A stretch of 32,922 nt of DNA from Sulfurimonas sp. CG01_land_8_20_14_3_00_36_23 (GTDB taxonomy: Bacteria; Campylobacterota; Campylobacteria; Campylobacterales; Sulfurimonadaceae): NCBI GenBank assembly GCA_002781365.1, contig PETN01000053.1, forward strand, positions 1-32,922, read 5' to 3'. The translations under genes were made by a program, and so were the position numbers. The notes beneath the pieces were generated by a model. The model was not told where the DNA came from. It saw only the letters and a list, made by a program, of their open reading frames with translations, and did not search any database. Below, piece after piece: positions 22,322 through 25,286 of the stretch; the first letter of the stretch is position 1; every line of letters begins with the position of its first letter.

Positions 22322-22753
22322 ATCCTCTTGCGTTTGCGGATACTTTATCTGAGTGATTTTTCTATTTTTGAGATATAAAACTGTGAGACAATCCTCTTTG
22401 TAGGCAAGCGTTAAATTAAATGCTTCATCATAACTCATAAGGATAGGGTGTTTGTACTTTTGCATCTTTGGCAATACAAAAAGATTTAAAATCCCTGAGG
22501 GAACTTGAGAAGCATCCACTAAAAAGTTGACACCCTTTGGCATGTGGAATTTCTCAAAATATCTGTTTGCAACGCTTGTGCTCTCTTTGTCCCAAGAGAT
22601 AATCCACATGCCATCTTTTATGAGCTTATACTCTTGATTATGTTGCGAGTGGAGTGTGACTTGGGTTATCTCATCACCGACTTGAAGCATATTTGCATAG
22701 AGGAGGAAGGGGAAAAAGAGTGCTACTATTTTTTTCATGGGCAAAGATAACAC
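22301..22753 (-). CDS. Small exported protein, possibly thioredoxin-fold without active-site cysteines
   Basis: A 150-residue protein (145 if it starts at ATG 22738). MKKIVALFFPFLLYAN looks like a signal peptide, so it is probably periplasmic. The pattern VGDEITQVTLHSQHNQEYKL, then GMWIISWDKES, recalls the first half of TlpA/peroxiredoxin-like domains, but no CxxC is present and the only cysteine (EDCLTVLY) is late. I do not recognise a specific function. The GTG at 22753 has AGAGAG just upstream and the ATG at 22738 has no clear ribosome binding site, so the start is unsure. Two copies of the repeated word lie 64 bp apart inside it. It is the last gene of the prs-lepA-comF run. Confidence 0.65.
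   Translation of the reverse strand: MLSLPMKKIVALFFPFLLYANMLQVGDEITQVTLHSQHNQEYKLIKDGMWIISWDKESTSVANRYFEKFHMPKGVNFLVDASQVPSGILNLFVLPKMQKYKHPILMSYDEAFNLTLAYKEDCLTVLYLKNRKITQIKYPQTQEDLKKILK
22539..22549 (-). repeat. CCACATGC word, coding
   Basis: GGCATGTGGAA on plus; in the minus-strand exported protein it reads FHMP. Confidence 0.9.
22603..22612 (+). repeat. CCACATGC word, coding
   Basis: TCCACATGCC on plus; the minus-strand gene reads it as GMW. Confidence 0.9.
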
Positions 22754-22781
22754 AACTCTCTTTAAACTATTTTATAAAACT

Positions 22782-23357
22782 CTATTTTTGACTTACATCT
22801 GCTAAAGCGAGGCAAAAAAGAGTATTTTTATTATTTCTCTGCATTGTTTGAATAGCCTGTGTAAATGTTGCACCAGTTGTGATAATGTCATCGACTAAAA
22901 TCACATCCTCACCTTCGAAGAATTGAAGCTCAAACTCTCTTGGGTTGAGGAGTCTAAACTCTTTGCTTTTACCAGAGTAAGAGATACTGTTTTTGGCTCT
23001 TAATTTATTGTAGAGAGGTTTTATATTTTTACTTTTTAGAGATTTGTTGAGTATGGCTGTATGTGCGTAACCACTCTCTGTTTTGTCATCAATGGCTATA
23101 GAAGGTATGGCATGTGGAAACTCAAATTGTTGTGCAAATTTTTTTAAACTGTTTTGCGCGAGTATTTTGTAAATGTAGTAGCCTAAATCTGTATGTTTTG
23201 TATGAAGCAGTTTCTTTATATCTTGATATTTGTAAAAAGAGAGTACTTCTATGTTGTTAAGGATTTTTCGTTTATAGATGGAGGGTGTTAAAAAGCTTTC
23301 TTGGCACGCTTGACAGATGTGTGTGAAAGACAAACTCTCACACAACAGACATCGCAT
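22782..23357 (-). CDS. comF: ComF family phosphoribosyltransferase-like protein
   Basis: A 191-residue ComF/GntX family protein. Four cysteines in two pairs (Cys3, Cys6, Cys15, Cys18) form a likely zinc ribbon. The C-terminal phosphoribosyltransferase-like domain has the PRPP-loop motif VDDIITTGAT at 155-164. In naturally transformable bacteria ComF acts in the cytoplasm in DNA uptake, working with PriA and incoming single strands; outside competence the role is unclear. It lies after lepA on the same strand, separated by a segment that appears to have been inserted (see the 26-bp direct repeat). One exact copy of the repeated word encodes FPHA at residues 80-83. Confidence 0.85.
   Translation of the reverse strand: MRCLLCESLSFTHICQACQESFLTPSIYKRKILNNIEVLSFYKYQDIKKLLHTKHTDLGYYIYKILAQNSLKKFAQQFEFPHAIPSIAIDDKTESGYAHTAILNKSLKSKNIKPLYNKLRAKNSISYSGKSKEFRLLNPREFELQFFEGEDVILVDDIITTGATFTQAIQTMQRNNKNTLFCLALADVSQK
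23109..23119 (-). repeat. CCACATGC word, coding
   Basis: GGCATGTGGAA on plus; comF reads it as FPHA. Confidence 0.9.
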
Positions 23358-23368
23358 CGTCTCTCTCT

Positions 23369-23522
23369 TAGTCCATTTTAAGAACGGACATAAAGTCTAT
23401 TGTTTTTTCTTCTTGCTGTGGGAACAAGTACCCACAGCAATTCATCTCACTAAAGCTTTTGCTATCGCAAAGAGAAGCATTTATAAGTTTCATTTCTAGT
23501 CCATTTTAAGAACGGACATAAA
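23369..23522. repeat. 26-bp direct repeat duplicating the lepA 3' end around a 102-bp insert
   Basis: TAGTCC to ATAAA, 26 identical bases, occurs at 23369-23394 and 23497-23522. The right copy is the real end of lepA (MSVLKMD, stop). The left copy encodes the same last seven residues and a TAA stop, right before comF. Removing one copy plus the insert would put comF about 10 bases after lepA. The insert also carries AGAAGCATTTAT (23473-23484), an inverted copy of lepA bases 23518-23529, and a strong hairpin. Confidence 0.85.
23413..23440. terminator. Hairpin in the lepA-comF insert
   Basis: TTGCTGTGGG (23413-23422) and CCCACAGCAA (23431-23440) are perfect 10-bp arms around an 8-base loop. 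On the minus strand it follows lepA by 56 bases. There is no T-run in that direction, so termination or mRNA end protection is possible but unproven. Confidence 0.5.
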
Positions 23523-25286
23523 TGCTTCTTGAGGAAGCTGCACTTTTCCGATGGACTTCATTCTTTTTTTACCAGCTTTCTGTTTTTCTAGTAGTTTTCT
23601 TTTACGGGTAATATCTCCACCATAACATTTGGCAGTAACATTTTTCCCCATAGATTTTACAGTTTCACGCGCTATAACTTGTGAGCCTAAAGAGGCTTGC
23701 ACTGCAACTTCAAAAAGTTGACGTGGGATAAGCTCTTTCATGTTTTTAACTAAAACACGACCACGGGCAAGTGCTTGTGTTCGAGGAACAACTATGCTGA
23801 GTGCATCGACTGCTTCTCCTGCTACTTTTATGTCAAGTTTCACAAGGTCGCCAACTCTGAACTCTATGGGTTCATAGTCAAAAGAAGCATACCCTTTTGA
23901 GATGGACTTTAAAGTGTCGTAAAAGTCCATAACAATCTCATTCATAGGAATCTCATACTCAAGCATAACTCTATTCTCATTAAGATAGGTCATTTTTGTT
24001 TGGATTCCTCTTTTGTTAATGAGCAGAGTGATGATATTGCCAAGGTAATCACTCGGAGTAATTACAGTAGCTCTTACATAAGGCTCTTCAATACGGTCAA
24101 TTTTATTGACCTCTGGAAGCTGAGATGGATTTTGAACATCGATTTTATCACCATTGTTTAGATAGACTTGGTAGATAACCGAGGGCGCAGAAGCGATTAA
24201 ATCAAGGTTAAACTCGCGTTCAAGTCTCTCTTTGATAACTTCCATGTGAAGCATTCCCAAAAATCCAACACGAAAACCAAAACCTAGCGCCATAGAAGTC
24301 TCTGGTTCATACGATAAAGAGCTATCATTTAATCGTAGCTTATCAAGCGCATCGCGTAAGTTTTCAAACTCATCTGTATCTATTGGATAGATACCTGCAA
24401 AAACGAATGGCTTCGCAGGTTCATATCTTCCAACAGGTTCAAGCGCAGGATTTTTTGCATCTGTGATTGTGTCTCCAACATTGATGACACTTACCTCTTT
24501 GAGTCCAAGAACGACGATACCAATTTCACCACATCCTATTGTGTTCGTTTTTATACGTTTGAGTGGATGAGGGTACATCAAATCTAAAATCTGATGTTCT
24601 TCAAGATTGCTCATGAGTTGGATGTTCTGACCCTTTTTAATCTGACCGTCAAACACGCGAACAAGAGCAAGTGCACCTAGATACTGGTCAAACCAAGAGT
24701 CATAAATAATGGCTTTTGTCGTTGCCTCAGGATTCCCAACAGGGGCAGGGATTCTATCTACAATCGCATCGATAAGCTCACGAATGCCAACTCCTGTTTT
24801 TGCAGAGACTAAACAAGCATCAGTTGCATCAATACCAATACTTGTCTCAATCTCTTCTGCAACTTTGATTGGGTCTGCTGCTGGTAAATCTATTTTATTG
24901 ATAACAGGTATAAGTTCAAGATTGTTCTCCATTGCAAGATAAACATTCGCAATAGTTTGTGCTTCAACACCCTGCGCCGCATCTACAATTAGAAGAGCAC
25001 CATCACTTGAAGCGAGAGACTTACTCACTTCATAAGAGAAATCTACGTGGCCAGGAGTGTCGATAAGGTTGAGAATATAGTGCTGTCCATCTTTGACATA
25101 ATCAAGTCGGACACTTTGTGCTTTAATAGTGATTCCTCGCTCTTGCTCGATGTCCATAGTGTCCATCATCTGCTTTTTAAGCTCGCGTTCACTTACCGAA
25201 CCACACTCTTGTATGATTCTATCTGCAAGCGTACTTTTCCCATGATCAATATGGGCAATAATAGAGAAGTTTCTAATGTTTTTCAA
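23496..25286 (-). CDS. lepA: Elongation factor 4 (LepA)
   Basis: A 596-residue translational GTPase. The G domain has AHIDHGKST (residues 11-19), the switch [14 protein letters not shown] and the NKIDLP base-recognition motif. The C-terminal domain, with the [18 protein letters not shown] stretch, is unique to LepA. It acts on ribosomes, probably in initiation or assembly. Length is normal. The gene starts 14 bp after prs on the same strand. Its final 26 bp are duplicated 128 bp further on. Confidence 0.98.

Follow-up and report, generated by a model that had tools for sequence, protein, structure and literature searches.

The window analysed here, a stretch of 32,922 nucleotides from Sulfurimonas sp. 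CG01_land_8_20_14_3_00_36_23 (source genome of 2.43 Mb in 102 contigs), carries on its minus strand lepA and then a comF-like gene. Between the two genes lie an insert, which contains the structured core of an element referred to below as E, and a second copy of the lepA tail. The features of this junction are, in the order in which the genes are read:

23496..25286, minus strand: lepA, elongation factor 4 (TIGR01393, 951.8 bits against a cut-off of 533.9), with its stop codon TAG at 23496-23498
23497..23522, minus strand: lepA tail copy 1, the true lepA 3' end, in a 26-nt direct repeat
23368..23493, minus strand: mini-ORF of 41 aa, beginning 2 nt past the lepA stop, a layout matched in 15 other lepA-site junctions
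23473..23484, minus strand: 12 nt in the 5' flank of E that repeat lepA 23518-23529 in inverted orientation
23402..23479, minus strand: structured core of E (covariance model R1, 94.6 bits, the window copy being one of its 11 training sequences)
23472-23475 with 23445-23448, minus strand: helix P0 (82% of cells paired over 93 distinct copies)
23467-23471 with 23458-23462, minus strand: helix P1 (88% of cells paired over 93 distinct copies)
23431-23440 with 23413-23422, minus strand: helix P2, 10 bp, with a conserved 8-nt loop (10/10 pairs change on both sides; 97.4% of cells paired)
23408..23414, minus strand: position of the Shine-Dalgarno-like AAGGAGA of the E family, which reads AAGAAGA in the window
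23369..23394, minus strand: lepA tail copy 2, the last codons of the mini-ORF, in the 26-nt direct repeat
22782..23357, minus strand: comF-like gene (best NCBIfam match TIGR00201 ComF, E-value 1.8e-12, 47.6 bits, under the cut-off of 233.55)

The repeats that the original prediction had read in this junction are all there. The two 26-nt copies at 23369-23394 and 23497-23522 are identical, with an offset of 128 and a gap of 102 bp, and both encode MSVLKMD, followed by TAG in lepA and by TAA in the copy. The 10-bp hairpin has arms at 23413-23425 and 23428-23440 (13 nt, 92% complementary) whose outer 10 pairs are perfect, and the inverted copy linking 23473-23484 to 23518-23529 matches at 100% over 12 nt. 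Two features had been overlooked, namely that the insert and the second tail form, on the gene strand, a single ORF of 41 codons, and that the insert belongs to a repeat family. The folding energy of segment 23369-23525 is -45.1 kcal/mol, against a mean of -27.3 kcal/mol for shuffled sequences (z -5.1, with none of 200 shuffles as good). No intrinsic terminator was found at the E hairpin on either strand of the window junction, the sole terminator-like match of the junction lying in the lepA tail (23524-23538, minus strand). Searched with the window mini-ORF, Pfam and NCBIfam gave no matching family, and the four Rfam matches over positions 22700-24000 of the window were all far under gathering scores.

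The insert in the window belongs to a family of structured repeats, E, whose copies measure ~80-90 bp. Covariance model R1, built from the inserts of 11 lepA–comF junctions, that of the window among them, matched 71 of 120 genomes of the genus (Sulfurimonas) at an E-value ≤ 0.01, with up to 17 matches per genome, 35 of 121 genomes and 9 of 18 genera in a family sample, and 14 of 150 genomes in a phylum sample; the three samples overlap one another, R1 E-values are rough owing to a short calibration, and the stricter filters used in the many-genome searches lost weak matches. When the insert was compared with its own genome, a DNA search returned the insert alone; a motif search together with R1 brought out one further copy of the family. 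In an alignment of 93 distinct copies, which is fitted to the R1 structure and hence biased in its favour, 17 of the 19 pairs show changes on both sides and pairing holds in 91.6% of cells, versus at most 60.3% when partners are slid. In a gap-free alignment of the 11 training copies, 6 of the 10 pairs of P2 changed on both sides, with 99% pairing. Rfam 15 contains no gathering-level family for E itself in the 20 loci searched, the RNase P matches obtained there being those of the host gene, and no paper describing the family came up by title or opening of abstract in a literature search that most subscription papers lay outside. E is apparently an undescribed family, made up of small folded repeats that occupy gene starts in sulfur bacteria and in organisms related to them.

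The location of E was established at 95 unique non-lepA sites (96 listed, one duplicate removed); one further copy, that of L154, which precedes a start codon between a different pair of genes, was left out of this set. Note that the copies read are mostly the best-scoring ones rather than a random draw, and that sites common to related genomes are not independent. At 83 of the 95 sites a CDS starts on the same strand between -6 and +25 nt of the E 3' end, and at 76 of the 95 sites the start lies within -4 to +3 nt on the gene strand. E itself supplies an AGGAG motif at 70 of these 76 start-adjacent sites, in 64 of the 70 cases 6-10 nt before the start. The motif is rarer in lepA-site copies (11/18 versus 70/76, p 0.003), which is what one would expect of a motif that stays idle at lepA, no gene start lying in front of it; the copy in the window lacks it. 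At the remaining 12 of the 95 sites, such a start is missing, or no CDS of sufficient length follows within the sequence read. Among these 12 are copies in or beside RNA genes: within RNase P RNA, inside the RF00010 match (L206 1501-1575 and L225 1001-1075), in leaders immediately preceding 16S rRNA (L142, L149 and, in the source genome, L032 1479-1553, G000:C36) and before tRNA genes (L213). The two RNase P copies, found in two genomes from a different family within the order, are flanked by the hairpin arms CCATTA and TAATGG. E also forms tandem arrays of 2-4 units; their periods comprise multiples of three (78, 81 and 84 nt) and other values (74, 75, 77, 82, 89 and 92 nt), so that we do not take them as evidence.

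Strong covariation, a conserved loop and a Shine-Dalgarno motif at a set position are also what one would expect of a fixed, non-mobile cis-regulatory leader, similar to a riboswitch or a thermosensor, that acts on the downstream gene through this motif. However, the genes downstream of the 83 sites are unrelated and fall into 49 clusters, and such a leader sits poorly with the copies found within RNase P RNA and 16S leaders, with the tandem arrays, with the mini-ORFs described below and with the empty sites in near relatives. We consider this reading unlikely. As regards the flanks of E, of the repeats scored at 66 sites only those of 11 lepA-site copies and of L175 beat all 30 shuffles. In L175 (1001-1075), a perfect 15-nt repeat, AGGAGTCAAAAATGA, flanks the element and covers the Shine-Dalgarno motif and the start codon; it is the clearest case resembling a target duplication outside lepA.

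Many copies of E carry an open frame that links the neighbouring genes. Defining gene-adjacent sites as those where an upstream gene ends within 40 nt, we found a mini-ORF running from the stop of the upstream gene through E to the next start at 39 of 59 gene-adjacent sites, against 6 of 24 non-adjacent ones (Fisher p 0.001); counted by cluster of downstream genes, the figures are 22/36 and 2/13 (p 0.008). The other 20 of the 59 gene-adjacent copies have no mini-ORF. The spacing between the mini-ORF stop and the next start is a 4-nt overlap in 10 of the 39 cases and ranges from -16 to +16 in the others. The junctions upstream of lpxC illustrate both filled and empty states: of the 30 that we read, 19 are tight (3-24 nt), six hold E by motif, four more (L237, L240, L249 and L255) contain E-like sequence or a remnant of it by eye, and one (L254) has a long gap without E. 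In L252, what appears to be the native Shine-Dalgarno motif and ATG now opens the mini-ORF, with E ending directly before the lpxC start, while in L159 an array of four units before lpxC is read as a single open frame of 109 codons (109 aa). The mini-ORF of E probably keeps the downstream gene translated.

Turning to the lepA site, a survey of 100 genomes of the genus yielded 89 junctions, 11 genomes giving no usable lepA end; two more were set aside (L016, contig end; L086, no tail). Among the 87 readable junctions, 69 are tight (≤16 nt), nine contain E and a second tail and nine are of other kinds. The tight majority bears out the earlier proposal that collapsing the repeat restores a tight lepA–comF junction. 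Three more E junctions were found at lepA in the genus (G106, G190 and G195) and four in three other genera (G134, G136, G148 and G121, whose junction appears to be contig L150). It had been suggested that conservation of the segment in distant relatives would make it an old functional spacer: the segment is present in such relatives and absent from most of the genus members sampled. The lepA–E–tail structure is also seen in three single-contig genomes (G031, G055 and G190), which speaks against an assembly artefact. The number of units at lepA is 0, 1 or 2. In G078, two different lepA tails occur on two contigs (L018 and L045), one of them with a tandem pair of units and the other with a single unit; this assembly may be a strain mixture. 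Elsewhere (L030, L085 and L092), other, unrelated-looking repeats fill the lepA–comF junction, so that this spot seems to take insertions often. A second type of repeat was seen by eye after lepA in L017 and on the other side of lepA in L029; it reads hairpin, TAGCTTTAGT, hairpin, AAGCGTAGTAAAA-like, hairpin, and is possibly related to E.

These junctions bear on two ways in which the segment could have arisen without E. First, local tandem duplication or template switching at lepA–comF, with no mobile family involved, would account for the direct repeat and for the inverted lepA copy at 23473-23484, the more so as L007, L018, L045, L194, L195, L196 and L199 have inverted copies of 9-14 nt too and those of L196 and L199 fit their own lepA best among the 17 junctions compared. 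Yet the core has family members at unrelated sites elsewhere, and lepA-site copies are common to four genera. Such an origin is largely refuted for the E core and very improbable for the segment as a whole; what survives of the template switch originally envisaged is that it, or a long duplication, may have first doubled the tail. The inverted copy measures 12-14 nt in 7 of the 17 junctions, 9 nt in one more and ≤8 nt in the other nine; with only 8 of 17 junctions in the 9-14 nt range, we rejected it as a general rule of lepA-site E. Second, a gene 3' end doubled around an insert recalls the remnant of a site-specific integrative element that restored the lepA 3' end between att-like repeats. 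The length of the tail repeat is inconstant, however, varying from ~22 to 61 nt, no second lepA tail was found outside E junctions in the readable junctions, over at most ~1.5 kb downstream of lepA (a distance that longer inserts would escape), and neither phage records queried with the window segment nor viral contigs searched with the exact family pattern gave a match. We regard an integrative remnant as extremely unlikely.

The second tail, which we located by its peptide pattern, is present in every lepA junction that holds E. Over the last 21 nt, comparison of tail 2 with the lepA tail of the same junction (17 junctions, two of them from G078) gave 34 changes, of which 33 are synonymous; the only non-synonymous one occurs in L048, where the unusual state sits in the tail of lepA itself. 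For an unconstrained tail 2, 60-71% of the differences would be amino-acid changes. In the longer part of the L196 tail 2, a junction devoid of comF, there is one amino-acid change, from P to L. In addition, lineage-specific states are found in both tails of a genome, namely MSILKMD (L195), LSVLKMD (L054) and KMDS (L199), which makes exchange between the tails probable. Selection and recombination may thus both be at work in keeping tail 2 lepA-like, bearing in mind that the junctions are not independent. If recombinational overwriting acted alone, E could be MIRU-like (see below) and the lepA-site mini-ORF untranslated; the shared lineage-specific states fit this reading, but the 33 synonymous changes out of 34 and the position of the L048 exception in the tail of lepA itself do not, and it appears doubtful to us.

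The mini-ORF is open in 15 of the 17 lepA-site junctions as scored by script. L045 has two consecutive units, each with a mini-ORF that is open when read singly; in L196, it is absent, and a convergent gene takes the place of comF, none being found within 1 kb downstream. The mini-ORF thus bridges the lepA stop and comF in all 16 lepA-site junctions that have comF (the 15 and L045). This does not support the suggestion that the insert separates comF from lepA: coupling between the two genes is probably kept rather than cut. One may even speculate, with limited confidence, that the 41-aa mini-cistron is being preserved as a gene in which a mobile element has been combined with a C-terminus taken from LepA, with its last seven residues under protein-level selection and with a LepA-like ending, acting as a micro-protein or as a nascent peptide at the stop, needed to pass ribosomes on to comF.

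As to the history of the lepA-site copy, the nearest copy of E is another lepA-site copy for all 18 such copies (17 junctions, four genera). A tree of the E copies, itself poorly resolved, accommodates the lepA group with 5 changes, versus 17.0 with shuffled labels. By contrast, the 11 E carriers are scattered on the comF tree, where they need 10 changes versus a shuffled mean of 10.5; this tree contains 82 of the 87 comF-motif rows, those dropped being short ones and L018, the second G078 junction. A simple single origin at lepA is disfavoured by these 10 changes on the comF tree and 5 on the E-copy tree, and the conflict requires that the copy was lost many times, was transferred by recombination or was gained separately a few times. 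An old insertion with losses by tail recombination, spread of the allele by recombination and a few gains all fit. A recent target duplication at lepA is unlikely, the copies being mutually nearest in 18 of 18 cases and spread over four genera; the insertion with target duplication put forward in the original prediction therefore holds as regards a small inserted element and a direct target repeat, but not as a recent or one-off event.

Altogether, we consider it likely that the segment represents a family of small repeats of Campylobacterota, probably non-autonomous, which is found at gene starts and works like the mycobacterial interspersed repetitive units (MIRUs), reportedly described by Supply et al. 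in 1997. The basis for this model is the covarying fold, the position at start codons, the mini-ORF near upstream genes, the filled and empty sites and the tandem arrays; from these we infer that E is mobile and that its mini-ORF is translated. E would insert at or beside a start codon and appropriate the native ribosome site to translate its mini-ORF; from there, ribosomes would reach the displaced gene by way of the stop/start junction and the Shine-Dalgarno motif of E, so that insertion would do little harm. At lepA–comF, an old copy would carry a duplicated lepA 3' end, its mini-ORF running from just past the lepA stop through E and the doubled tail to end just before comF, so that both the upstream context and the coupling of comF would stay as they were originally; through recombination between the lepA tails, the unit would probably be lost or multiplied. 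Several observations count against the model: the copies in RNA contexts (RNase P RNA, 16S leaders, upstream of tRNA genes), for which a mini-ORF ought to be irrelevant, the 20 gene-adjacent copies that lack a mini-ORF and the six non-adjacent ones that have it, the lack of a clear target duplication at most of the sites scored and the scatter of the lepA-site carriers on the comF tree. As a candidate mobiliser we considered the IS200/IS605-type Y1 transposase, which was rejected: it is present in 41 of 71 genomes with E versus 20 of 49 without (p 0.09), has a copy number weakly correlated with that of E (rho 0.20, p 0.03) and is missing from 4 of 15 high-copy genomes. No mobilising enzyme for E was found in these 120 genomes, the Y1 transposase being the one tested.

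If the model is right, start-codon-seeking elements with a mini-ORF that softens insertion are no mycobacterial oddity but occur in a distant phylum, in a version that adds a conserved RNA fold and its own ribosome-binding site. E would then provide a natural many-site test of translational coupling, and there would probably be many unannotated mini-ORFs. The lepA copy is unusual in having captured a gene tail that stays lepA-like at the protein level.

Several known families share part of these properties. The bacterial MITEs ERIC, NEMIS and RUP are, in the passages of PMC2229807 that concern them, folded, dispersed and non-autonomous repeats of ~100-200 bp with terminal inverted repeats and a target duplication; E is likewise folded and dispersed, slightly shorter, and showed no flanking repeat at most of the sites scored. 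The Rickettsia palindromic elements (RPEs), according to the same article (PMC2229807), are short repeats with a fold that occur in a variety of settings, RNA genes among them, and are also fused in frame inside protein genes. Compared by description, E is also small, folded and present in several contexts including RNA genes, whereas the E copies that we read lie between genes or in RNA genes. The resemblance to MIRUs extends to more features. A 2025 review (PMC12548453) presents MIRUs as apparently mobile elements with start codons as their insertion sites and with an ORF of their own, coupled at a spacing of -4 nt to the gene; PMC3635867 mentions tandem copy-number variation. Similarly, E is a short dispersed repeat at start codons (83/95 sites, 76/95 within -4 to +3) and occurs as arrays of 2-4 units and as 0, 1 or 2 units at lepA. 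An internal ORF that may be coupled to the neighbouring genes is present at 39 of 59 adjacent sites and absent from the other 20. In contrast to MIRUs, the spacing in E is not fixed at -4 (10/39), and E belongs to another phylum, has a strongly covarying fold and its own Shine-Dalgarno-like end, is also found in RNA genes and, at lepA, is joined to a duplicated host gene tail. E thus resembles MIRUs, as they are described, in architecture; without a fixed spacing and with these other features, it would best be viewed as a MIRU-like variant rather than as a member of that family.
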